Origin: a virus
Direction: 5' to 3' (one strand)
DNA: 31,128 nucleotides
Virus record (IMG/VR): IMGVR_UViG_3300009149_005829
Span: 1-31,128 of that record
Shown: positions 9,072 through 29,489 of the stretch, one piece after another
Layout: each line of letters starts with the position of its first letter
Position numbering within the stretch: position 1 is the stretch's first letter
Program-made: the position numbers and the translations under genes
The notes under the pieces: model-generated
Told to the model about the DNA's origin: nothing
The model's input: only the letters and a program-made list of their open reading frames with translations
Databases searched by the model: none

Positions 9072-9974
9072 ATGGCACATGACCCGTTTGATCTCGATGC
9101 ACTGGCAAAGAAAGCAGCAGAAGAACACAAAAGAATGGAACAGGACAGAAAGGACAACAGCAAGTGGGGCAAAGTCCAGAATGGTGTCCCGGTGGGAACA
9201 ACAGGAGTTCGCTTGTTTCCCATACCTGGAAGCACCGGGGGCTGTCACGAGGTGATACCATTTCACTCATTCCCACCAAGCATGAATGAAAATGGAAAAT
9301 GGAAAAGTTCCCCCTGTCAGGAATATTTTGGGAGGGCTTGCCCGGACTGTGTGCGAGCAGAGAAAGGTGGACTCAAAACAGGGAACAGGAACATGGTTAT
9401 CGCGGTGCTCAAGAATAAGGACGCGAGCCTGGATCTGTCTACCCCAAAATTTACGGTACTTCCCCCATCGGTAGTCAGTATGATGGTAGGTAATTTTACT
9501 CCAACAGGGGATGATGACGATGATGGTGGTTATGAATTCAAAGATTTTGTCAATGTGGCACCCTCAGCAATGGCATTCAATGTTGTTCGGTCTGGTGCTG
9601 GTAAAGACACAAAGTATGAAGTTAAAGTGCGCAAGAATCCCATTGAACTCCCACCGGAAGTCATAGAAAAAGTCAAAGAGTATGCACTTAATTTCAAAAA
9701 GTACATTGCTGAACTGTACATGGACAATGCAGAACAGGCAGGAAACGCAGCTACTGGAGACGATGACGATGATGCCGATGCACCTCCGGCAAAAACAACT
9801 AAAGCCGCAAAGAAGTCGCCAGCCAAAACTACTAAGAAGCCCACTCCCTCAGTAGACAAAGCTGCTGATGAGGCTCTGGACTCCGCCATAGGTGACGATG
9901 ACGACCTCGATGGTGGTGACGATGATGCTACGGATGATCTGGACGACTTCGATCTGGATGATGAAGACCTGTAA
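9072..9974 (+). CDS. gp32-like single-stranded DNA-binding protein
   Basis: A 300-aa protein built like T4 gp32: a basic, helical N-terminus, a core with a zinc site His65/Cys82/Cys90/Cys93 (HSF...SPCQEY...RACPDC), a long linker with lysine-alanine repeats (about 235-265), and a very acidic tail ending DDFDLDDEDL. T4 gp32 uses His-Cys-Cys-Cys with nearly the same spacing. It should coat single-stranded DNA and recruit polymerase, helicase loader and recombinase through the tail. GGAGG lies nine bases before ATG 9072. The same final residues recur in the protein at 14330, suggesting a shared docking tail. Confidence 0.82.
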   Translation: MAHDPFDLDALAKKAAEEHKRMEQDRKDNSKWGKVQNGVPVGTTGVRLFPIPGSTGGCHEVIPFHSFPPSMNENGKWKSSPCQEYFGRACPDCVRAEKGGLKTGNRNMVIAVLKNKDASLDLSTPKFTVLPPSVVSMMVGNFTPTGDDDDDGGYEFKDFVNVAPSAMAFNVVRSGAGKDTKYEVKVRKNPIELPPEVIEKVKEYALNFKKYIAELYMDNAEQAGNAATGDDDDDADAPPAKTTKAAKKSPAKTTKKPTPSVDKAADEALDSAIGDDDDLDGGDDDATDDLDDFDLDDEDL

Positions 9975-10616: not shown

Positions 10617-11215
10617 TGGACTATAATATACTCTGGGAACAGTTACTGCAATTTTCAGTTTTCAAATCACTGTCTCTGTCCGCTGAACAGATCCTGTTGA
10701 GCACAGACAATCAGGATAGAGTATTTCACTGCTGTCGAAAAATGAGCCACTACCTGCTTGCAACAATAGACAGTGCGGACGAGGCAGAGGCAATGGCTGC
10801 TATGCGGAATTTGCTCAGGGAAACATTGAACCTGGCATCTCTGAACGGTCTGAAAACACCAACTGCATTCATTGAGGCTCTGAACAAGCATATCCGGCAT
10901 ATAGATTTACCCGGACGGTTGGTATACGGGCATGAATTTTCTCTGCACCACCTGAAAAAACATTTTGGCAATTTTGTATTACAGGACACCTTTACCTTGA
11001 CAGGCACAGCCTTGGAAGCTCTGAGGAACATTGTCTACCTGCAGTCTGCCACAGATCAGAACCTTCCCCCCGGAACAATGTTGTTGAGGATTCGGGAAAA
11101 AATATACAGAGAGCACTTATTCCGTGCAACCCTGTCCGCGTTCTGCTTCATTGATATGTGGGGAGTTGGTCGGCTTGAGGGTTATTTACAGGAGAAAACT
11201 GATGCTACCGTTTGA
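10616..11215 (+). CDS. Hypothetical helical protein (199 aa)
   Basis: ATG 10616 overlaps the previous TAA by one base, indicating coupling. The protein is predicted mainly alpha-helical, with a leucine-rich N-terminal half and several histidines in the centre (FSLHHLKKHFGNF). No nucleotide-binding or metal motif was seen. Its last 14 bases overlap the polymerase gene and its 3' end carries that gene's AGGAG site, so the two are expressed together. Clamp-loader-like or polymerase-accessory functions cannot be tested from sequence alone. Confidence 0.62.
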   Translation: MDYNILWEQLLQFSVFKSLSLSAEQILLSTDNQDRVFHCCRKMSHYLLATIDSADEAEAMAAMRNLLRETLNLASLNGLKTPTAFIEALNKHIRHIDLPGRLVYGHEFSLHHLKKHFGNFVLQDTFTLTGTALEALRNIVYLQSATDQNLPPGTMLLRIREKIYREHLFRATLSAFCFIDMWGVGRLEGYLQEKTDATV

Positions 11216-13892
11216 CATGGACATCTGCAAAAACTGCCCCCTGTTTCCGCTCTATCACAGCCGGGTGTTTCACGGAAAGAGTAACCTCACTTCTCCCATC
11301 ATGTTTATCGGTGAATCACCTACACAAACCGCAAGCGGTGAGGGTTTTGACGACCGGGAATCAAAATGGTTTCTGCGAACTCTGGGGCATGCCTTTGGGA
11401 TAACAAAAAATCAAGTCGAGGAAACATTTTACTTTACATACGCTACCAAGTGCACACCCCCTGAAGGGCAGAAGAAAGCGAATATCAGGAAGTGCTGCAA
11501 TAGATATCTGTACCGGGAGATAGAAATAATCAAGCCGAAACTGATTGTACTCCTGGGAAGGGATGCTATCAATTCCGTGTTCGGTGGTAATGCTACGGTA
11601 GGCGGAAAACGAGGAAGGATGTTTGAGGGGCAGCTCGGACGCAAGTTAATATCCAGTGGAAAAAATGCCGGGTCAGAGGTTATTGAGTTTGAGAAAGGTC
11701 ACGGGGAAAAGTATCTGTTCCTACCCACTTATTCTCCCTCGGATGTCAACCGGAATATGGGTTTGCTGAAAATCTTTGTGAGGGATATCGGAACTATTAT
11801 TCGGTACATGGAAGACGATCTGCACAAGGTGCAAGTACCGTACAGCATTATCCGCACCGATGCGGGTGTACGAAAAATGCTCAGGTATGCGGAAGTCAAG
11901 AAATTTAACTGGCTCTCCAACGATGTCGAAACAAACGGCAACAATACTATGCTGAACAAGGTGACTCTGAGTGGGTTCACCTTTATGAATACCAACACTG
12001 GGGAAGTTAAAACCTTTGTGTTGGACATGAAAAAGTACAGGAGTGAGAGTGCGAAACCGCACTGGCAGAAAAATGTAATCCTGAAAACAATTTTTAACAA
12101 TCTCCCGTATGTTACGACTCTCTGCGGACAGAATTTTAAGTTCGATATCCGCTCCAGTCGCAAATACGGTTTTCCTGACCGCATGGACAAAGAAATTCTG
12201 GACATCCAGTTGATGTCATATATGCTCGATGAGGAAAAATTCGGTGGTAAGACACAGCACTCCCTGGAGGATCTGCTCAGCTATTACTACCCGGAAGCTG
12301 TGGGATATAAAAGTGGGAAAAAAGAAAAGAAACCGAAGACTGAGGCTGAAATCGAAGCCCACTTCTATGACCACAAATACTGCGCAGAGGATTCTTACTG
12401 GACACTCAAGCTGGCACTTATTATGCACACAGAGTTGCTGAAGCCCAGTAACAAGTATGTGTGGAATCTGTATTTTCGTCTTTATCCTAAACTAATTCAG
12501 CTCACAGCACGCATGGAGAATACGGGGATCTGCATGGATGTAGAGAAGCTGCGAAAGCTCAAAGCCCGGTACGAGGAACAACTGCCAAAGTACATCCTGA
12601 AAATGAAACGCATCGTTTACAAAGAAACAGGGGATAAAAAATATGCCAAGGCTTTCAATCCAGAATCGCCACAACAATTAAAAAAACTGTTCTTCGACCA
12701 TTGGCAGTTTCCGATATTGAGTAAAACAAGAAAGGGTGCACCCCAGCTCGACCAGGCAGCAATAGAGAAATACTTTGCTGCGGTGGAGAATGGCACATTA
12801 AAACTACCTAAATATGGTAGAAAGTTCCTGTATACCCTCAAAAAATTCAGATTAAAACAGCAGCGTTACTCGACCTTTATTGAAGGTATGTTTAATCACC
12901 TTGACCATCAAGGGCGCATACACACTAATTTCAATCTGACAGGCACGGCTACCGGGAGATTCAGTTCCAGCAATCCGAACCTGCAGAATATACCGCGAGA
13001 TTCCACTGACAATGAAATAAAGAGACTGTTTGTAGTAAGCAGTCCTGATCGTTCCTTTGTAGAGATTGATTTTTCACAGTTGGAACTGCGTATCCTGGCA
13101 CACCTGAGTCAAGACAGAGGTTTGATCTTGGCTTACAAAAATAAAAGAGACATCCATCTGCAGACTGCCGTAAAAGTAAATGCAATCCTTCATCCACATG
13201 AAGCTGTATCCTATAAGGTGGCTGCAGAAGAATACAAGGTCAGCGAGGAATCGTGGAGTACGAATCGAACAAAAGCGAAAGGTGTAAACTTCGGTATCCC
13301 TTATGGCATTACTGCTGTAGGTCTGGCTGCTCAGGTCAAAATAGCCATTGAGGAAGCTCAAAAATTCATTGAGGGTTTCATGGAGGCATATCCAGGTGTC
13401 GGAGAATATCAGCGGAAAACAGTTGCTTACTGCGAGAAGAAAGGATATGTCTGCACCCTGTTCGGCAGACGCAGACACCTTCCGAATATCAATGACAAGA
13501 ATAAATATTTCAAAAAGCGTGTTGAGCGACAGGCACAAAATGCCCGTATTCAAGGTACAGCCGGGGATATTACAGAGTTTGCAATGATCTATACAGATGA
13601 ACGGCTCTATCAGACCAAACTTAACTGGGATATGCTTATCCAGGTGCATGATAGTATACTCTTTGAAGTTGACGATTCCTGTTTGACAGAATTCACTGTC
13701 AAACTGCGAAGCCTGCTGGACAATCTACCCTTACAGGAAGCTCTGGGAGCAAAGCTGTGTATACCACTCCCGCACGATATGAAGGTGGGCAAGTGTTGGG
13801 GAGATATGACTAAGAACATAAGAAAATATGCGGAGGATCTATGTCGGAAAAAAGAACAGAGAGAACGCTTCCAGAAATTGCTGGAAAGTTAG
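11202..13892 (+). CDS. Family A DNA polymerase with N-terminal UDG-like domain
   Basis: The 896-aa replicative polymerase starts at ATG 11202, with AGGAG seven bases upstream. Residues 1-200 form a family-4-like uracil-DNA glycosylase domain: iron-sulphur cysteines Cys9, Cys12, Cys84 and Cys98/99, and FIGESP as motif 1. Motif 2 reads PTYSPS (175-180) where active enzymes have a histidine. Residues 235-410 are the 3'-5' proofreading exonuclease: DVET (Asp241, Glu243), QNFKFD (Asp315) and Tyr393/Asp397. The polymerase has motif A EIDFSQLELR (Asp623), motif B RTKAKGVNFGIPYG (689-702) and motif C QVHDS (His816, Asp817). HDS replaces the usual HDE. No 5' nuclease domain is present; it is supplied by 6652-7584. 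UDG-PolA fusions are, to my knowledge, present in SPO1-type phages. Confidence 0.93.
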   Translation: MLPFDMDICKNCPLFPLYHSRVFHGKSNLTSPIMFIGESPTQTASGEGFDDRESKWFLRTLGHAFGITKNQVEETFYFTYATKCTPPEGQKKANIRKCCNRYLYREIEIIKPKLIVLLGRDAINSVFGGNATVGGKRGRMFEGQLGRKLISSGKNAGSEVIEFEKGHGEKYLFLPTYSPSDVNRNMGLLKIFVRDIGTIIRYMEDDLHKVQVPYSIIRTDAGVRKMLRYAEVKKFNWLSNDVETNGNNTMLNKVTLSGFTFMNTNTGEVKTFVLDMKKYRSESAKPHWQKNVILKTIFNNLPYVTTLCGQNFKFDIRSSRKYGFPDRMDKEILDIQLMSYMLDEEKFGGKTQHSLEDLLSYYYPEAVGYKSGKKEKKPKTEAEIEAHFYDHKYCAEDSYWTLKLALIMHTELLKPSNKYVWNLYFRLYPKLIQLTARMENTGICMDVEKLRKLKARYEEQLPKYILKMKRIVYKETGDKKYAKAFNPESPQQLKKLFFDHWQFPILSKTRKGAPQLDQAAIEKYFAAVENGTLKLPKYGRKFLYTLKKFRLKQQRYSTFIEGMFNHLDHQGRIHTNFNLTGTATGRFSSSNPNLQNIPRDSTDNEIKRLFVVSSPDRSFVEIDFSQLELRILAHLSQDRGLILAYKNKRDIHLQTAVKVNAILHPHEAVSYKVAAEEYKVSEESWSTNRTKAKGVNFGIPYGITAVGLAAQVKIAIEEAQKFIEGFMEAYPGVGEYQRKTVAYCEKKGYVCTLFGRRRHLPNINDKNKYFKKRVERQAQNARIQGTAGDITEFAMIYTDERLYQTKLNWDMLIQVHDSILFEVDDSCLTEFTVKLRSLLDNLPLQEALGAKLCIPLPHDMKVGKCWGDMTKNIRKYAEDLCRKKEQRERFQKLLES

Positions 13893-14329: not shown

Positions 14330-15451
14330 ATGGGAATCAATCTCGAAGTAAAAGACCTGAATGAAGAACAACTGCTGGAAATCATTACGCGGGGAATGGT
14401 ACGCAGGGCGCATGAAGCAGCACGGACACGAAACAACAAGAGAGTGCCAGACGGTATGAAAGCAGATCGGGGTCCGCGTATCATCAACGGATTTCCGTGG
14501 TTGCCCTGTTCTCAGTTAAAGGTGGGGAGATTCACCTCAACTGACATTCAGGGTGCTTTCCATATTCTGCGGGCGGTTCTTTACAATGCCATCCTGAATA
14601 AGGTTCAGATACCTATTCCCGGTGGACAAATGCGCGTCAAGATGCAGAGAAGCATGCGTCCGGAACATAAAGACCTGGATGTCAAGTTCCCCAAGGTCAA
14701 ATTCTATCCAGAGGATCGCATCAAAAATGAGCTCATCACAGAGAACGATGTGGAGAAAGCCCTATCAAAAGCGCATGCTCATATTAATGTACTCAAAGCA
14801 AATCTCCGCAGAGAGGTTATCGAAGAACTGGCGAAAGAGGTTGCACAGTATGCTTTTGCTCCATCCGCCTTTGATCTGGAGGACGAGAAACAGGCTGAAG
14901 CAGAAAAGAAAGCTGCAAAGGCTGCTGCAAAAGCTGCTGAGAAAGATGCCGCTGAGAAAGCTGCTGCGGTCGAGAAGAAAAAAGATCCGCCTACTACTGA
15001 GAAAGCTAATCCAGAGAAAGAATCAACTGCAGAAGCTCCAGCAACACCAGCCGGTAAGAAAAAAACGAAAACTCCCCCCAAGCCAGAACCTACACCGGAG
15101 CCAGAGGGTGATGCCGAAGAAATTGGAACTTTCGGTGACGATATAGACGCAGAGGATGGAGATACAGCGGGTGCAGAAACTGCCCCTGCAGGAGATGATG
15201 ATTTTGACGACTTTGACCTGGATGGTGACGAGTCCGATGGCACAGATGCACTCTCGGACGATACAGAAACTGAAACAAATGACGAGGATGCTGATGAGGA
15301 TGCGGACGCAGATACTGCTGATAAAAACGGAACTGATGCAGACGCTGGAGATGGCGAGGACGATGAGTTTGATGGTGATGATAACGATGATTTTGGCGAT
15401 GACAATGACGATGAGGATGATTTCAGCGATTTTGACGATGAAGACCTGTAA
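14330..15451 (+). CDS. Replication-operon protein with long acidic low-complexity tail (373 aa)
   Basis: Residues 1-175 form a plausible globular domain with basic patches (ARTRNNKRV; QMRVKMQRSMRPEHKDLDVK). Residues 180-260 are an alanine/lysine-rich then proline-rich linker, and the last 110 residues are almost entirely Asp, Glu, Gly and Thr, ending DFDDEDL. The tail ends like that of the SSB at 9072 (DLDDEDL), which suggests that both tails dock on the same partner or that this is a second DNA-binding protein with an SSB-type tail. GGAGG lies nine bases before ATG 14330. It is followed by a strong terminator. No family was recognised for the N-terminal domain. Confidence 0.7.
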   Translation: MGINLEVKDLNEEQLLEIITRGMVRRAHEAARTRNNKRVPDGMKADRGPRIINGFPWLPCSQLKVGRFTSTDIQGAFHILRAVLYNAILNKVQIPIPGGQMRVKMQRSMRPEHKDLDVKFPKVKFYPEDRIKNELITENDVEKALSKAHAHINVLKANLRREVIEELAKEVAQYAFAPSAFDLEDEKQAEAEKKAAKAAAKAAEKDAAEKAAAVEKKKDPPTTEKANPEKESTAEAPATPAGKKKTKTPPKPEPTPEPEGDAEEIGTFGDDIDAEDGDTAGAETAPAGDDDFDDFDLDGDESDGTDALSDDTETETNDEDADEDADADTADKNGTDADAGDGEDDEFDGDDNDDFGDDNDDEDDFSDFDDEDL

Positions 15452-18423: not shown

Positions 18424-19836
18424 ATGGAAGAATATAAACTGTTTGCTCTTATTGCTCTCGCTCTCAAGCACAATATCGGTGTCGAAACCTATATGCCTAT
18501 ATTCCAGAAAATGACGGGGGAATTCAGCCTGCTCTCCTATGACTTTCTGAGTCTTACCCGACTCAAAGGCATCCTGAACCTGTCGGACTTCATAAAGCAC
18601 TTTGAGGATTACTACAAGGACATTTGCGAAGCTCAGGATTATTCCCTGGTGGAAACTGTTTATGAGATAAAAAAACAGTTTAAGATCCACAGAAAATTAT
18701 CCAAAAGTACCATACACAATACGATCAGACAGGAACTGGTGAATTTCCTCTACACGCAGATACCCAAAATAAATTACGATAATGAATCTACCATTGAGTC
18801 CAAAGAAGTCGGTATCAAGAAAATGGAAGAATACCTGGCTCTCATACAGGAACTGCAAAACGAGGAAGACTTCAATACCGTTTCGCGCCTGAATATTGCG
18901 GACGAAACAGCCGTATCAAGTTATGAAACACTTCAGGCAACAATAAACGCGGAGCAGCAATTTTCCATTCGTACCGGAATACCCACCCTTGACAAGTATC
19001 TGAAGGGTGGTCTGAAAAATGCACGCATCGGTCTGATCTTTGCTCTCCCGAAAAGATTCAAAACAACAATGGCTCTGAATCTGGCTATCCGGGCTTTTGC
19101 CGGGGGCTACAATGTCGTGTTTATTTCTCTGGAAATGAATCTGGAGGATGCTAAGGCAAAAATATCCCAGATAAAATCACTCCAGTCAATGTGGAGACTC
19201 CGGGAAAAGAAACAGTACAACAACTTTTTTGAAATTGTATATCGACCCCCACACTCTTTCAGCACAGACGATCTGCAACGATATCTCAATGAATTAGTCC
19301 GAGAGGGTAAACGACCCAACCTAATACTCATTGACTATGTAGACATTATGCGTAATCCCGATCTGGGGAGAGGTGCTGAAAAACGACACATGCTGAACAG
19401 CCTGTACTATAAGCTCCGTGGAATTGTGAACAAATACAACATTTCTCTATGGACTATTTCCCAGGCGAACCGACAGGCGACACAATCCACAAAAACAAAA
19501 ACTGAGCATATCGCGGAGGATTTTTCCAAGGTCGCGGGTGTGGATTATCTCATAAGTCTCTCTCAGCAGCGGCTGCAAAAGAAGCAGGGCTTTGTCACTA
19601 TGAGTTTTCTGGAAAGTCGCTGGACTGATTGGACAGACCTGGATGCCGATGACATTGTACTCTACAGGAAAAACGGCTCCCTGATATTCAAGGAACTCAC
19701 CCCTGAGTCAACTGACCTTGTACAATATACAGATAGCAATGCAGCTCCAGCGAAACTCACAAAGGCTGAAAAACAAGAACAAAACCGAGGACGCTTACAG
19801 AAACTGATAGATAAAAAGAGAGGTGAACCCGCATGA
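18424..19836 (+). CDS. DnaB-like replicative helicase with non-canonical Walker A
   Basis: A 470-aa RecA-fold replicative helicase. The N-terminal 180 residues are helical, like the DnaB N-domain and linker. The ATPase core begins at GIPTLDKYLKGGL (185-197), with VVFISLEMN (Glu237), Walker B LILIDYVDIM (Asp304) and the sensor-like WTISQANRQ. Motif H1 reads ALPKRFKTT (207-215): the lysine and threonine are present, but the glycine before the lysine is phenylalanine and the first glycine is alanine. The C-terminal 50 residues are polar and lysine-rich. It should form a hexamer at the fork and act with the primase. GAGGGG precedes ATG 18424. Confidence 0.85.
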   Translation: MEEYKLFALIALALKHNIGVETYMPIFQKMTGEFSLLSYDFLSLTRLKGILNLSDFIKHFEDYYKDICEAQDYSLVETVYEIKKQFKIHRKLSKSTIHNTIRQELVNFLYTQIPKINYDNESTIESKEVGIKKMEEYLALIQELQNEEDFNTVSRLNIADETAVSSYETLQATINAEQQFSIRTGIPTLDKYLKGGLKNARIGLIFALPKRFKTTMALNLAIRAFAGGYNVVFISLEMNLEDAKAKISQIKSLQSMWRLREKKQYNNFFEIVYRPPHSFSTDDLQRYLNELVREGKRPNLILIDYVDIMRNPDLGRGAEKRHMLNSLYYKLRGIVNKYNISLWTISQANRQATQSTKTKTEHIAEDFSKVAGVDYLISLSQQRLQKKQGFVTMSFLESRWTDWTDLDADDIVLYRKNGSLIFKELTPESTDLVQYTDSNAAPAKLTKAEKQEQNRGRLQKLIDKKRGEPA

Positions 19837-20768: not shown

Positions 20769-22348
20769 TGCACTTACTGGAAATATCATTCACAAACATC
20801 AAAGCTGTACGGAAATTCTCCCATAATTTTGAGCTGGGAACGACTCTCATCACTGGAGAAAATGATCGGGGGAAAACTACCATCTTTGTGGCTGTCAGAG
20901 CTGCTATTACAGGTGAACTTAAAAAGCATCTGGTAAATAACCAGGCATCCTCCGGGAAAATCTTTCTGAAATGGGAATACATGGGCGATATCTATGCTGT
21001 TGAAAAAGAATTTTTTACCCAGGCGAACAAATCCGCAACTGCGAAACTGTGGATAAACGATATGAAAAAGCCGCAGTCCACTTCCTGCAAGTATGTCAAA
21101 GACACTTTGAGGAAGCAGTTCTATTTTTTCCACTCCCTCGGTTTTCTCTGGGCTGCAAAGATCGGACGCATCCTTATGGAACACAATATCAAGAAGGATG
21201 CTTTCATTGTAGACTTTTTTGAGTTGCAGCCTATATATGACTACATCAAAAGCATGAACAAGCATATCAACAATACCAAAAAGTCAATTCCAGACTGGGT
21301 GTATGACTTCAATGCTGTCGAGGCGAAGCAGCACTACACACATTATAAGGCGAAAGCCCAGACCATGACAGAGGAAATCACAGAGTGGCGAACCAAGCTC
21401 AAAAAACTCCAGAAAAAACTGGGGCAAAGCATCCTGCTGGAAGGTCGCACCATTGCCACAGAGGAAGAACACCAGGCAAAACAGTCCGAGATAGCAAAAT
21501 TCAGAAACGCACACACAAAAGGCACTACAATGCGCGATATGAAACAGAATGTGCTGCGTATTGTGTCCGGGTCTGAACTGGGCGGTGCCTGCCCGATCTG
21601 CTATTCAGAGATTACGGACTCCGCACAACTTCGAGATAAAATTGCGGCAGAAATTGACACACTGGACGCAAAATGCTCTAAGCGGTTGAGGAAACTGCGG
21701 GAACTACAGGAAGCCAGTAAAAAATTGATAGTCATAAATGAAACTGTGCAAACAGATCCAGAAGAAATCGAAAAATTGCGTGTGAAAGAGCAAAAAATAG
21801 AGGATAAAGTGGAAAAATTGGACGAAAAACGCGGAAAATATGCTGTTAGGGTCGAACAACTGGGGGATAATCTCCGGGAGTACAGGCGGTACGAGGAAAA
21901 GCTGAAAACTGCGGACATAGATAACATTGCAGCCATTGCAGCTCGACTGACTGGCATGATGGACAACCTCGCACGGAAATTAAAAACCGAACTCGTAGAC
22001 AGGATGAATGAGTTCATGTATGTGGTTTATGACGGAGAACGCACCATACAAATTGAGGATGGAGTCATATACTTAATCGATCCACACGGGGAAAAAATCC
22101 TACTGGATGAACTGAGCAGTTCCGGCTCCGGTTTGGAAATAGTCACCTTCATCTTTACCCTTTCCCTTAGCATTTTATGCGGAAATAAGGTAATATTACT
22201 GGATGAAATATTCAATACTGTGGGAGTAAACCTGTTTCCAAAGGTAAATAAGCTCCTGGCATACGCTACCGAGCATTATCTGACCCAGGTTTTGATTATC
22301 TCACACAAGACGGACTTTATCTCAACCCACTCCGTACAACTGCAATGA
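20768..22348 (+). CDS. SbcC/Rad50-type ATPase (T4 gp46-like)
   Basis: A 526-aa SMC-like ABC ATPase. Walker A is GENDRGKTT (30-38), followed by head-domain strands. A first coiled coil runs about 185-250, the zinc hook is CPIC (Cys275-Cys278), and a second coiled coil covers about 290-410. The C-terminal head has a signature-like SSSGSGLEIV (450-459) in place of the usual LSGGE and a Walker B with catalytic glutamate, KVILLDEIF (Glu480), then a final ISHKTD switch. The short arms are typical of phage gp46. It drives the nuclease encoded just upstream. The start overlaps the nuclease stop by one base. Confidence 0.9.
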   Translation: MHLLEISFTNIKAVRKFSHNFELGTTLITGENDRGKTTIFVAVRAAITGELKKHLVNNQASSGKIFLKWEYMGDIYAVEKEFFTQANKSATAKLWINDMKKPQSTSCKYVKDTLRKQFYFFHSLGFLWAAKIGRILMEHNIKKDAFIVDFFELQPIYDYIKSMNKHINNTKKSIPDWVYDFNAVEAKQHYTHYKAKAQTMTEEITEWRTKLKKLQKKLGQSILLEGRTIATEEEHQAKQSEIAKFRNAHTKGTTMRDMKQNVLRIVSGSELGGACPICYSEITDSAQLRDKIAAEIDTLDAKCSKRLRKLRELQEASKKLIVINETVQTDPEEIEKLRVKEQKIEDKVEKLDEKRGKYAVRVEQLGDNLREYRRYEEKLKTADIDNIAAIAARLTGMMDNLARKLKTELVDRMNEFMYVVYDGERTIQIEDGVIYLIDPHGEKILLDELSSSGSGLEIVTFIFTLSLSILCGNKVILLDEIFNTVGVNLFPKVNKLLAYATEHYLTQVLIISHKTDFISTHSVQLQ

Positions 22349-22358
22349 GGGGAAGCTA

Positions 22359-24275
22359 ATGGGCGCAATAGTAAGTGCATACCAGCGTAAGAATGTACAG
22401 CTTATAAAACTTGGAAACAGAACTATAAAGATAGTTCCGGAAGTGGGCATCGAAGAATTTTTCTGCGAGCCATACTTCATTGGGGAAAGCACCAGAAAAG
22501 ATGCTGTAAAAGGTGGTGCTATATTCGGTATCTGGCAGAAAGCCCTCAAGGAAATCTATTCAAAGCGGGAAAAGTCCGAGGTAATTCTGACAGGTGGGAT
22601 AGGACTCGGAAAATCCATGTGTGCAGATATCGGCATAGCGTACAGCATTTATCGCATACTCCGTCTGGAGAATCCACAGGATTTTCTGGGGTGTATGACA
22701 GATGATTCTATAGTTATTGCTTTCATTAATCTCACCCTTGATCTGTCAGACAGTGGAAATGTTGTCAGAGTTATAAACATGCTGCAGAGATCGCGAGCTT
22801 TCACCGACCTTGGTGTCAGATGGAATACCCGGACAGCTTTACCTACTCCAATACTCCCCAAGAATGTCATGCTAACCTCCGGCTCTGCCTTTGCAAAAGG
22901 ATTCGGAATTGTCGGAAAGAACATTATCACTGGGGTTCTGGATGAGATTTCCGAAGTACGCAGCAATGCAAAATCTCAGATACGATTCTCACAGAAAAAA
23001 GCCTTGGATCTGTATCGAACTGCTGCCAGAAGAATTAAATCCAGGTTTATGAAAAAATGTGACTTCGCAAAGCTGTACCTTGTTTCATCCAAACAGGAAA
23101 AAGATCAGTTTCTTGAACAATATGTTGAAAAGGTGAAGAATGAACCGCATATTCTTGTATACGATTTCCCTCTCTGGGAAGCCAGACCCGAAAACTACAG
23201 CGGAAAAAAATTCTATGTAGGCATAAACAAACTCTGCCAGCCTCTCATAGAGGATCGTATGCACAAAATCCCAAAAAATTATAAAGTGTACGCTATCCCT
23301 GTAGAGCATAAACCGGAGTTCAGACTTGATCCTATTACAGCCCTGGCAGATATTGCCGGTGTGAACCTGAACATGCACAAGATGAAGTTTTTCAGGAATC
23401 TCAATAAACTCAAATGCGCTTTTCTCCATGCGAATCTGTGCCCGGACACAATCGAACTCAGTTTATATGATGACCGGGATATTATAAGTTGCTTCAATAT
23501 GGAAGAACTTCTCAAATTCAGCGGGCAGAAACTGTCCATCCACATTGACACATCGTGGACAAAAGATTTAACCGGGATCTCCGCCAGTTATCTGATCGGA
23601 AAAGAAAAAGTGGATCTGATAGAAAACCGCGATAATTACATGGACCTGATGAAAGACATCACCGGAGTCATAAATAGTGCGGGGGCTGCAGATCGTAGAG
23701 CCGGTAAAAATGAGGATACAATAGAAGAAATTCCTGTAGTGCATCCTCTGGGTAAACTTGTGAGCCAGAAAACCATAACCATCCCCCGCATCCGCACACT
23801 GTTCGCCCTGGGAATAGTTCCACGGGATGAAATACCTCTGTTCAAAATTCGCCAGTTTATATACACACTGCGAAAACTGGGTTTCAAAATTGCCATTGTC
23901 ACAATGGACGGATATCAGTCCGTGGATATGCAGTAGCTTCTCCGAAAGAACCGCATTCCGACTGAACTACTTTCCCTCGATAAAACAATGCTCCCCTATA
24001 CATCTATGCGGACATTCATTTATCATGGGTACTCGGAACTTCCACAGAGTAAGCTACTATACCGGGAGCTTAAAAACCTGATGGAAGTCGATGTGAAAGT
24101 AGACCACCCGGAGGATGGAAGTAAGGATGTTGCTGACAGCACATGCGGATCGATATTTAACCTTCTCAATACAAAAAGTCCCCTGAACACGCACACCACC
24201 CGCGAGAAGCTGGATATGTGGAAAAGCTGTTTGAATGGGGCACTATTAAAAAAACACCGGGAGGAAAAGGAATGA
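22359..24275 (+). CDS. Terminase large subunit, interrupted by an in-frame amber codon
   Basis: ATPase motifs: Walker A TGGIGLGKS (78-86), Walker B TGVLDEISEV (Asp195, Glu196) and coupling motif LVSSKQ (241-246). The RNase H-like nuclease starts with IHIDTSWTKDLTG (Asp397, Asp403). The frame meets TAG at 23934-23936 (codon 526) right after DGYQSVDMQ, then stays open to TGA 24273-24275. The 112 codons beyond continue the conserved terminase pattern (LLSLDK; ELKNL; VDHPEDGSKDVADSTCG), including the last nuclease aspartate. Without decoding of UAG, the protein is 525 aa and lacks part of the catalytic site. GGGG precedes ATG 22359. Possible explanations are readthrough, amber reassignment (CAG would be one base away), mutation or sequencing error. 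Confidence 0.85.
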
Positions 24276-24616
24276 GCGACAAGAACAAAGAAGCGCAAGA
24301 TGCGGCACAAAAGGACGAACAACTGTACCTGCTGAAACTGATAAGTGGTGAAACACTCATCGTCATAGGTGCTTTTGTGGAGCAGGGAAATATTCCCGCT
24401 TTTGTATGTACACGGGAACCGCAGTCCATTAAACAGATTCCAAAGTCACCCACCCAGACGGATATGCTTCCGTTTAAGTACATTCCGGGGTCGCGGGGGT
24501 ACTTACCTGTTTTCTATGCAAGTCATTTTATGCACGCCCCACTACCAGACAAGTACATCAATGAAACACTGAAAAAACGATACCTGGAAAGCATTTCCGG
24601 TATCAAGTGCGCATAG
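24272..24616 (+). CDS. Hypothetical phage protein, possible Sm-like fold (114 aa)
   Basis: ATG 24272 overlaps the terminase TGA (ATGA) and is preceded by GGGAGGAAAAGG. After a charged 17-residue N-terminus the protein reads LYLLKLISGETLIVIGAF, then a PQSIKQIP loop and a terminal LPDKYINETLKKRYLE helix. Short phage proteins with the order K-L-I-S-G-E, a strand pair, a proline-rich centre and a final helix resemble small Sm/Hfq-like barrels. That is only a structural guess. It is the next gene after the terminase in the same transcript and ends with TAG. Confidence 0.6.
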   Translation: MSDKNKEAQDAAQKDEQLYLLKLISGETLIVIGAFVEQGNIPAFVCTREPQSIKQIPKSPTQTDMLPFKYIPGSRGYLPVFYASHFMHAPLPDKYINETLKKRYLESISGIKCA

Positions 24617-25199: not shown

Positions 25200-25228
25200 T
25201 TGACAAGCGTTAAGTTTTCGGATATACT
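25200..25228 (+). promoter_or_regulatory. Strong sigma70-type promoter P3
   Basis: TTGACA (25200-25205), a 17-bp spacer AGCGTTAAGTTTTCGGA and TATACT (25223-25228). Spacer and boxes are near-copies of P1 and P2, 20 kb away. The leader GTGTTTTGGAGG that follows resembles the leader of P2 (TGTTTTGGAGG), so promoter and leader look like a duplicated cassette. Confidence 0.88.
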
Positions 25229-25262
25229 GAAATTGTGGTACAAAGTGTTTTGGAGGATCTTA

Positions 25263-27311
25263 ATGAAAAAAATTGGATTTCAAACGAAAAAGAAAACTGA
25301 CATCCCGGACTTTATTCTACATGACATTGTTGATGAGGATGCGTGCTGGGAAACTTCTCGCTATCCGCATATCAAGTATCCATTCTCCCATTTTAACCGA
25401 GTACAATCTACCATTCTGGAGAAGGTGGGATACGACATAGATGTGAATATCGTACTGGGAACTAGGACGAGTTCCGGAAAAACCATTTGTGCGGAACTGT
25501 TGATGGGTGATACCCTTACAAAGGGTAAAAAAGTAGTGTACATCTCTCCCTTGAAATCTCTGACCCAGGAAAAATTTGATGACTGGTCAGAACTCTTTGA
25601 AGATTACAAAATCTGTATCCTCACAGGTGACTATGTACTCTCTCCAACGAAAGCCGGTGAATTGAAAGATGCAGATATCATCTGCTTAACTTCGGAAATG
25701 ATTGACAGTCGCTCCCGGAAAGCAGACATGGAAAAATCGAGCTGGTTATTCGATGTAGGGCTTATCCTTGTGGATGAAGCACACATTATCGCTACGAGCA
25801 GAGGGCACGCTGTAGAAGTAGGGCTGATGCGTACAGCAAAACTGGTACCTAATGCCCGGATAATGCTTCTCTCTGCTACTATGACCAATATCGAGGACTT
25901 TCTCATCTGGCTCACTCGCTTGAATGGGAAGCGAACAGTAGGAATAAACTCAAACTGGCGACCCACTGAGTTGACATGGGAATATGTAGAGTACAAAAAC
26001 ACAGCACTCTGGAAGTACAAGGATATGGTACAGGAACAAATATCTCTGGTCATTGCACTCCTGAAAATGAAACCAGATGAGAAGTTTCTCGTCTTTGTGC
26101 ATGCCAAAACGGTCGGGCATCAGCTCCTGAAAGCTATCAAAGCTGCCGGAATCACAGTGCAGTTTCATAATGCGGATCTTGCTCAGGATGAACGCATGAA
26201 AATTGAGCGATCATTCGAAAATAGGAAAGGTGGTCTGCGCGTGCTGCTCTCCACCTCAACACTTGCATGGGGCAGAAATCTCCCCGCGAGAAATGTCGTG
26301 ATTGTTGGAATAAAACGAGGCATAAGCGATGTCGATATCCTGGATTTCATCCAGATGGGTGGTCGTGCTGGGCGACTGAATATTGATCCATGCGGTACAG
26401 TGTTTCTGATCTGCCCGGATGAACAGCTATGGAAACAGAAAATAGCGAGATCCAGACCTATCATTTCCACACTCCTGAATAAAGATATCCTGGGCTTCCA
26501 TGTCCTTGCAGAAATGCGTATTCACACTATAGACAATGACGGAAGCCTGTTTGACTGGTTCAAGCAGTCCCTCGCATACATTCAAGGGCAGTGGGACGAG
26601 TGTATTGCTCTCCAGGCTGTCGAGGATCTGAACCGCATGCTTATGCTGCACATTAAGAACGAGGAATACAAAATAACTCCCCTCGGAGTTATCTCAGCCA
26701 TTATGTACTATCTCCCGAAAGATGTTTACCACCTTGACAACACTTTTGGGACTATTGTGCAGGCAGATGCCTGGGGTGACGACTGTTCTCTGGCTTATGC
26801 AATCGGAGGTCTGCCTACACACCAGCTTAGCTACATCCCGAAGGACTTAGCTACCCAGACAAACAATTTTTCAAGCGATTTACGGTCTACTGGAGTGTTT
26901 GTATATGCTCCTGACTCCGCAGTGGCTGCCGCGCTTTACCACTTCTGGGAATTCGGAAAGTCGCACATAATCTTCAGCCAGATTCAGCGGGATATTGACA
27001 GAATTTCCGAAACAATCCGACAGATTTCCAAAGTCAGACAGTGGGGAAATAATATAGAAAGGGAACTCCGCATACTGGGAGTCCGTGTCAAATATGGTGT
27101 CCGCAGGGAGCTTGCACACCTCTGTCTGCTGCCTGGAATCGGGAAGGTGAGAGCTGAAAAACTCGACCTCATGGGCATACGCAAGTATTCAAACTTCACT
27201 GATGATAAGCGCGGTATGATTTCTGGTATAATCGGTGTAAAAACTGCTGAAAAGGTGTTCAATTTTTTGAATAAAAAACGGGCAGCGAAGATCCGCACAC
27301 AACAACAATAG
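25263..27311 (+). CDS. Ski2/Hel308-like SF2 helicase
   Basis: A 682-aa helicase starting at ATG 25263, with GGAGG (25252-25256) six bases upstream; upstream in-frame codons lie inside promoter P3. Motifs: FNRVQST (Gln48 of the Q region), GTRTSSGKT (66-74), ISPLKSL, LVDEAH (DEAH 171-174), LLSATM (203-207 region), HNADL, and QMGGRAGR (364-371). The C-terminal third holds helical domains and a helix-hairpin-helix, LLPGIGKVRAEKLDLMG (about 620-640), as in Hel308/Brr2-type enzymes. Such helicases unwind lagging-strand forks or structured RNA. It stands alone between promoter P3 and its own terminator, separate from the replication operon, suggesting independent early expression and control by the anti-SD elements flanking it. 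Confidence 0.88.
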   Translation: MKKIGFQTKKKTDIPDFILHDIVDEDACWETSRYPHIKYPFSHFNRVQSTILEKVGYDIDVNIVLGTRTSSGKTICAELLMGDTLTKGKKVVYISPLKSLTQEKFDDWSELFEDYKICILTGDYVLSPTKAGELKDADIICLTSEMIDSRSRKADMEKSSWLFDVGLILVDEAHIIATSRGHAVEVGLMRTAKLVPNARIMLLSATMTNIEDFLIWLTRLNGKRTVGINSNWRPTELTWEYVEYKNTALWKYKDMVQEQISLVIALLKMKPDEKFLVFVHAKTVGHQLLKAIKAAGITVQFHNADLAQDERMKIERSFENRKGGLRVLLSTSTLAWGRNLPARNVVIVGIKRGISDVDILDFIQMGGRAGRLNIDPCGTVFLICPDEQLWKQKIARSRPIISTLLNKDILGFHVLAEMRIHTIDNDGSLFDWFKQSLAYIQGQWDECIALQAVEDLNRMLMLHIKNEEYKITPLGVISAIMYYLPKDVYHLDNTFGTIVQADAWGDDCSLAYAIGGLPTHQLSYIPKDLATQTNNFSSDLRSTGVFVYAPDSAVAAALYHFWEFGKSHIIFSQIQRDIDRISETIRQISKVRQWGNNIERELRILGVRVKYGVRRELAHLCLLPGIGKVRAEKLDLMGIRKYSNFTDDKRGMISGIIGVKTAEKVFNFLNKKRAAKIRTQQQ

Positions 27312-27448: not shown

Positions 27449-27865
27449 TCAGAATCGGAAACCGTATTGCACACCAATATACTTAATTCCACCCCATTCT
27501 AGGTCAGTATTCAGCCTCTCTGTTGTATTTATAGGTGTTTCATAGACACCAAACCTCAGTTTCCCCGAATAATAATCACCCATCTCTGCCAGTAATCGAT
27601 CCTGTACACCTTCCTCTAGCTCATTCCACAGCATTTTGTACGCGGTATCTTTGAACTCCAGTGCATTAAAATCCTCCGAGTGCCGAATAAGGTAGTCCTG
27701 GATGCGCCCTGTAAAGCCGCAGATTGCATTGTACACAACCTTATCGTCTTTATTGAGTGTTCGGTTGGTTCCGTACTTAATAAGTGTAGGAGCGAAGCTA
27801 CAGACGGCACTGACAAGAATCCAGTACGCGAAAACATTCACGATCCACATGATATCAAAAAACAC
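27449..27865 (-). CDS. Hypothetical membrane-anchored protein of the lysis region (138 aa)
   Basis: A GTG start at 27865 has GGAGG four bases upstream on the minus strand; ATG at 27850 is an alternative with poorer spacing. Residues 1-32 are hydrophobic (IVNVFAYWILVSAVCSFAP), either a signal anchor or an uncleaved leader, followed by a soluble charged domain of about 100 residues ending YIGVQYGFRF, whose beta-strand pattern might be exported. It is last in the minus-strand lysis cassette, so a spanin-like or superinfection-exclusion role is conceivable, but there is no lipobox and nothing conclusive. It ends with TGA. Confidence 0.65.
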   Translation of the reverse strand: MFFDIMWIVNVFAYWILVSAVCSFAPTLIKYGTNRTLNKDDKVVYNAICGFTGRIQDYLIRHSEDFNALEFKDTAYKMLWNELEEGVQDRLLAEMGDYYSGKLRFGVYETPINTTERLNTDLEWGGIKYIGVQYGFRF

Positions 27866-28414: not shown

Positions 28415-29023
28415 TTAAATAGTTCTATTATTTTTCAGAAAGTCTCTCAGCTTTCTGATTCTGACCATCCAGCCATTCAAAGAATCCACGAAAAAGAACT
28501 TCTCATCATTGACTACACAATACTTCTTATCATACGCAAGATATCGAAAGAATTCAAGTCGCTGCAACAGATATTCACCCACCAGGGCTTCCTGTGCATT
28601 GTCATACTGATCCTGTCTCTTGTACTCTGCGATTGTTTTCGCTCCGATAACCCCGTCATCAATAAGTTCCCCGCCAAGTGCGTTCAGAGCACGCTGTAGG
28701 AACTTTGCTGACTGCTTTTTACCGTGGTTAATGTTTGAGTCGAAGTGTACCAGGCTGAGAGGATATCCTATACTGTCGCAACTCCCATATTTCCAGTATC
28801 GACCCTGGTAAATTGTGACTGCATAAGGCAATGTAAGATTCTCGATATCCTTCTTTGCGGCTCCGGGCATGAGTGCCCTCTGACTGATCCCGTACTTTGT
28901 CCATCCGCCTGAATCTTTACAGAGTTTATCACCCTCAAAATCCAGAATAAGTTCCATGCACTTCTCAAAATTCCGATCTAAATTCAGCCCCCGCAATTCC
29001 TGGAGTGTCTTTTGACTCACCAT
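28415..29023 (-). CDS. GH108-type endolysin (N-acetylmuramidase)
   Basis: A 202-aa lysozyme. The N-terminus has LILDFEGD (catalytic Glu30 in the EGG-like position) followed by SGGWTKYGIS (38-47), the signature of glycoside hydrolase family 108. A helical core follows, and GVIGAKTIAEY marks the peptidoglycan-binding-3 C-terminal domain usually found with it. It hydrolyses the MurNAc-GlcNAc bond of peptidoglycan. There is no signal peptide, so release depends on the holin. EGG is changed to EGD, a mild variation. ATG 29023 has GGGGAGG nine bases upstream and overlaps the end of the receiver gene by 59 bases, linking their translation. Confidence 0.87.
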   Translation of the reverse strand: MVSQKTLQELRGLNLDRNFEKCMELILDFEGDKLCKDSGGWTKYGISQRALMPGAAKKDIENLTLPYAVTIYQGRYWKYGSCDSIGYPLSLVHFDSNINHGKKQSAKFLQRALNALGGELIDDGVIGAKTIAEYKRQDQYDNAQEALVGEYLLQRLEFFRYLAYDKKYCVVNDEKFFFVDSLNGWMVRIRKLRDFLKNNRTI

Positions 29024-29489
29024 CTTCTGTTTCCTCCCCGACTTCCATATTAAACTGAACCGCCATACTTTCCAGCAGGTCTAAATGTTCAGAACCTTCC
29101 GTCATCCCGGCATCTACGAGAAAAATTGCCTCATCTATCCTCTGCATTACCTCATCTGAGGTCAATGATTTTGGAATAACTGTGATACAGTTGCGACCCT
29201 CCAGGTCTTCTCGGAGAATCTGCTCCGGTACACCTGTGTATATTACAGCCGGTACATTATTTCCTGAGTCTCTAAGTTCTCGCAGGAAGGTAAGTCCAGC
29301 TCTCTGATCGTGCGCGAAACGGATGTCTAAAACAATAAGTTGAAAAGGGGTTGTTTGTAGCGATTCTCGTGCAATATTTATATCTCCGGTGAACTCTACC
29401 GACACATCAGCATACTGTTTTCGCTCAAAAAGCCTCCAGTACAGTCGCCTGAGTGAGTCATCACCTTCTATAAATAGAATACGCTTCAT
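28965..29489 (-). CDS. Stand-alone CheY-like response-regulator receiver
   Basis: The 174-aa protein has an apparently complete receiver domain: FIEGDDSL with the acidic pair Asp10/Asp11, LIVLDIRF with phosphoacceptor Asp55, VIYTG with Thr85, and VIPKSL with Lys107. There is no DNA-binding or enzymatic output domain, only a 45-residue acidic C-terminal extension (about 130-174). Such proteins act by binding partners according to phosphorylation. GGGAGG lies six bases before ATG 29489. It is in the lysis operon, between the coiled-coil membrane protein and the endolysin. A receiver is very unusual there and could couple lysis or another late step to a host histidine kinase. The phosphorylation source is unknown. 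Confidence 0.87.
   Translation of the reverse strand: MKRILFIEGDDSLRRLYWRLFERKQYADVSVEFTGDINIARESLQTTPFQLIVLDIRFAHDQRAGLTFLRELRDSGNNVPAVIYTGVPEQILREDLEGRNCITVIPKSLTSDEVMQRIDEAIFLVDAGMTEGSEHLDLLESMAVQFNMEVGEETEDGESKDTPGIAGAEFRSEF

Follow-up and report, generated by a model that had tools for sequence, protein, structure and literature searches.

Does an amber codon inside the terminase large subunit (TerL) gene of a virus mark a change in its genetic code, or is it an isolated fault in a genome that is read conventionally? The question is raised by IMG/VR record IMGVR_UViG_3300009149_005829, of which the window, i.e. the whole stretch of DNA analysed here, comprises 31,128 bases; the record is classed as linear and is therefore probably a fragment. 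The TerL frame (22359..24275, plus strand) is 638 codons long and contains a single internal TAG, codon 526 (23934..23936, plus strand).

The terminase gene and its internal amber codon

The N-terminal 525 codons (22359..23936 on the plus strand, the TAG included) encode the ATPase together with nuclease motifs I (D397, D403) and II (D517) and end in DGYQSVDMQ directly before the TAG. Past this codon the frame stays open, as had been predicted, for another 112 codons (LLRKNRIPTE...VDHPEDGSKDVADS...HREEKE) up to a TGA at 24273-24275. This downstream part (23937..24275, plus strand) can be aligned to the conserved terminal part of known TerLs, and holds D541, K580, H583, S588, D590 and D593 and the region of nuclease motif III. 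With the base composition found here, 112 open codons in a row would arise by chance with a probability of about 0.001; the two alternative frames of the same stretch contain 6 and 7 stops.

Identification of the frame as TerL draws on tblastn, alignment and an AlphaFold model, and rests on tblastn and fold because PHROG and Pfam searches gave no family match. The 638-codon read-through product matches 347 phage records in tblastn, and 261 of these matches span 80% of the frame or more. Many records in this set are annotated as TerL, with identities below 35%, and the nearest known TerL relatives are only 33-34% identical. A sequence-profile search for solved structures returned no match. The AlphaFold model has a mean pLDDT of 82, and the best PDB matches of the predicted fold are the large terminases of D6E, HK97, Sf6 and T4. 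The Walker A motif GGIGLGKS, D397, D403, D517 and D590/D593 lie in one frame only if the TAG is read through, so that the Walker A and the aspartates of nuclease motifs I, II and III by which a terminase large subunit is recognised are complete with readthrough only. The expectation that a 525-residue product would contain the ATPase and an incomplete nuclease is borne out, as this product lacks motif III. In the model, codon 526 is placed in the middle of a helix (residues 519-530) between D517 of motif II and motif III, whose D590/D593 would sit in a helix of residues 590-604. A chain ending at residue 525 would hence break the nuclease fold rather than stop at a domain boundary.

The TerL of the window shares 23-34% identity with a family found in the Thermus phages phiLo/phiYS40, Bacillus phage SP-15, Vibrio SIO-2-like phages, Rhizobium phage RHph_TM and the Maribacter Colly phages, and has in common with them the domain order and the motifs DGYQSxDxxQxL and DHPxxGSKDxAD. 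The members of this family that were examined are uninterrupted by stops, and some of them contain inteins whereas the window's TerL does not. In one relative (L016:1879-4680), nuclease motif III is interrupted between DHPYSG and SKDVADA by an intein-like insert (C...VHN|S). At L011:1435-2901 and L026:7200-7470 (Bacillus phage SP-15), TerL is broken into pieces that lie far apart, and both breaks have intein-like ends (VHN|C), one of them just before Walker A, which suggests a split intein arrangement.

The residue at codon 526 and the state of the downstream part

Comparison with related terminases had been proposed as a check on the residue at the TAG. When 12 terminases of annotated phages were aligned with the window's TerL, codon 526 fell in a column of invariant Gln (Q526). 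Approximately 90 TerL loci were then collected by patterns that are independent of codon 526; 88 have Gln at this position and three are aligned with Glu, one of these by misalignment. After removal of redundancy Gln is found in 66 of 68 relatives and Glu in two, and none of the roughly 90 loci has an in-frame stop anywhere in TerL. Position 526 is thus a nearly invariant Gln, as would be the case in a recoded phage, and it is equally what an ordinary CAG-to-TAG change would produce. TerL offers 32 sites at which a transition creates a stop, and CAG to TAG is the commonest type among them (16/32), so that Gln codons would be a frequent target of ordinary nonsense changes and of C-to-T miscalls alike. 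The match to Gln is therefore compatible with both readings.

The downstream part was originally predicted to be under selection, and this holds at least until very recently. Of its positions, 21 are conserved across 70% or more of the relatives; 19 of these (90%) are kept, where intact relatives keep 93% on average. Such a lack of decay means that the change to TAG, and with it any loss of function, is very recent, or that the part is still translated.

Stop codon usage and tests for UAG recoding

Recoded phages avoid TAG as a terminator, whereas here TAG terminates seven of the 24 well-supported plus-strand genes other than TerL. Of the six minus-strand genes three stop with TAA and three with TGA, and the original description of stop usage on the two strands is correct. 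The phase-specific UAG recoding that was read into it finds no statistical signal, as zero TAG stops in six genes has a p value of 0.13 if the strands are alike (Fisher 0.29). Reading through the plus-strand TAG terminators gives short tails or overlaps. The two TAG-ended genes downstream of TerL, the adjoining gene (24272..24616, plus strand) and a DEAD-box helicase gene (25200..27311, plus strand; Pfam PF00270/PF00271), would gain tails of 30 and 87 residues, and the extended helicase frame runs antisense into the minus-strand gene at 27449.

Further in-frame TAGs had been suggested as a sign of recoding, and in the well-supported genes of the fragment, amounting to about 9,400 codons, the one in TerL is the only internal TAG. 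CAA and CAG alone encode Gln elsewhere, with TAG accounting for 0/270 Gln codons in the 24 other plus-strand genes and 0/39 in the six minus-strand genes; the recurrent internal TAGs at Gln positions of several genes that characterise a TAG-to-Gln phage are not seen. A naive count in which TAG is read as Gln gives 10 of the 28 window ORFs with an internal TAG. It was rejected as evidence of recoding because, leaving TerL aside, the TAGs are genuine terminators close to the 3' end or precede the true start, or else the ORFs themselves are spurious and antisense. A tRNA with a CUA anticodon was also sought; neither tRNAs nor Rfam RNAs were found in the 31-kb window, which is a linear fragment of a genome that could carry a suppressor tRNA elsewhere, and the tRNAs of 34 related loci include none with this anticodon.

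The published TAG-to-Gln phage phAss-1 (OQ749652) served as a positive control. It has TAG in 41 of 147 ORFs and three Sup-CTA tRNAs, and its TerL is broken by TAG where other TerLs have a conserved Gln (PMC10607447). In this last respect it resembles the window, which in contrast has one internal TAG and no tRNA. TAG makes up 26%, 9% and 11% of the Gln codons in the three stretches of phAss-1 that were measured; at these rates the probability of finding at most one TAG among the 57 Gln codons of TerL and the minus-strand genes ranges from 6e-7 to 0.03. A second precedent is the crAss-like phage OFRY01000050 (Yutin et al. 2021; PMC7886860), which gained a suppressor tRNA for TAG and in which, in contrast to its nearest relatives, TAG codons have begun to build up in conserved genes, TerL among them. 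As in the window, TAG appears in its TerL while close relatives keep sense codons, but OFRY01000050 has the acquired suppressor tRNA and several TAGs, whereas the incomplete genome of the window shows a single TAG and no such tRNA.

Genomic context and a close relative

TerL is encoded on the plus strand inside a replication and recombination cluster, and is not among the genes of the 'late strand'. The cluster includes genes for a methylase, an HD hydrolase, an exonuclease, a UvsX-like recombinase, a UDG-DNA polymerase A fusion, a primase, helicases, SbcD and an SbcC-like protein. The TGA of TerL overlaps the ATG at 24272 of the next gene (ATGA), which encodes 114 aa and is preceded by the Shine-Dalgarno sequence GGGAGG. 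No integrase was identified among the genes of the window, and none of the other genes appears broken.

Several neighbouring genes are of interest in their own right. The polymerase fusion (11124-13892, plus strand) has a Uracil-DNA-glycosylase superfamily domain N-terminal to a family A DNA polymerase with 3'-5' exonuclease, according to Pfam. A stand-alone response-regulator receiver domain protein is encoded in the lysis-side operon (28965-29489, minus strand), and its gene overlaps that of a GH108-type endolysin by 59 bases. Two plus-strand genes (14330-15451 and 9072-9974) have products whose long C-terminal tails are acidic and D/E-rich and finish with DEDL in both cases; the product of 9072-9974, which adjoins the recombinase, may be an ssDNA-binding protein.

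Searches of IMG/VR with TerL, its C-terminal part, the SbcC-like protein, the DNA polymerase and the helicase identified one close relative, the contig L002. It is identical to the window over 402 TerL codons and ends about 370 bases before the TAG. An exact-pattern scan of IMG/VR across codon 526, with the codon itself left free, found no match. Genome contigs yielded no close relative and two distant ones, from MAGs. A search of phages for distant DNA matches to the flanks recovered the DNA methylase alone, and nothing for the right flank.

Over 4,539 bases the window and L002 show six differences. Five of these are synonymous third-position transitions that lie inside a DnaB-like gene, in a stretch of only 37 bases (19152-19188), and the sixth is a missense change at 21006 in the SbcC-like gene. 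This distribution indicates a strain mixture, or a mosaic or locally mosaic assembly patch. A mixture or mosaic assembly in turn makes a base error at the level of the contig, or a minority allele, plausible without proving it.

Origin of the amber codon

Taken together, the TAG is probably an isolated C-to-T change at a CAG codon in a standard-code phage whose TerL is otherwise intact, most likely as an error or in a defective variant. The altered base could have originated as a sequencing or assembly error, as a damaged-base call in the metagenome contig, or in one defective genome of the population. L002 ends before codon 526, so the TAG is covered by this contig alone and an error is presumed rather than shown. 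What the original prediction had listed as the plainer options, an amber mutation or a sequencing error, fit best, and the TAG most likely does not represent a functional, heritable feature of TerL. If the 525-residue product is taken literally, it would keep the ATPase and lose the helix and strands that follow motif II as well as the motif III aspartates. We infer that a TerL truncated in this way could not complete its nuclease and should not package DNA productively. The position of the TAG exactly at a nearly invariant Gln counts against an isolated change, because recoding predicts it too. The likelihoods given to this and the following explanations are judgements and not computed values.

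The chief rival, incipient amber suppression, is unlikely. It supposes that a phage or host tRNA reads UAG as Gln often enough for TerL codon 526 to have become the first tolerated TAG, which would mean that UAG-to-Gln reassignment has only just begun in the lineage, or that its host has an amber suppressor. The nearly invariant Gln and the intact downstream frame agree with this, there is the crAss-like TerL precedent (PMC7886860), and TAG terminators would still be kept at an early stage. In addition, only 52% of code-15 phages have a detectable Sup-CTA tRNA (PMC11210395). Nevertheless the event is a single one, neither the window nor the tRNAs of the 34 relatives supply a suppressor, and the TAG-ended neighbours downstream of TerL would be extended as well. 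A phase-specific reading of UAG as Gln that is already established in late genes, as known from crAss-like phages and phAss-1, is extremely improbable. The phAss-1-like position of the TAG and the absence of TAG stops from the six minus-strand genes speak for it, but that absence is not significant, the scarcity of internal TAGs is hard to reconcile with phAss-1 rates, and TerL lies with the early cluster, where genes downstream of it end in TAG.

That a genuine amber mutation is fixed in a dead or host-dependent lineage, such as a defective prophage or a satellite-like state, is improbable: the intact remainder of TerL would fit a recent event, but the apparent integrity of all the other genes speaks against a prophage in decay, and an integrase is missing from the identified genes. 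An isolated programmed readthrough that yields two forms of TerL, ATPase-only and full length, is very improbable. It is in keeping with a frame that is open on both sides of the TAG, but the short form would end in mid-helix and no relative has a stop, conserved or otherwise. The special readthrough context suspected from the C that follows UAG fares no better, since a C in this position does not favour amber suppression in bacteria and RNA folding near the TAG is neither stable nor unusual compared with shuffled sequences (z -0.4 to -1.3). Least credible of all is a fixed split of TerL, with the C-terminal end made as a separate subunit from an internal start. In-frame ATGs do follow the TAG at 23988, 24006 and 24081, but no start codon after the TAG has a Shine-Dalgarno sequence at the proper spacing, unlike most genes of the window. 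A start at 23988 would moreover omit residues 526-543, including the nearly invariant S539 and D541, and the break would again fall within a helix.

Significance

If the TAG is an error, which is the more likely case, the locus illustrates that recoding should not be called from one TAG in a hallmark gene when the sequence is a metagenome contig, unless reads, a suppressor tRNA or a second TAG back the call. If instead the TAG is real and read as Gln, it would offer a rare view of a genetic code at the onset of change, in a phage that lies outside the crAss-like groups, and the gene of the packaging enzyme would have been affected first.
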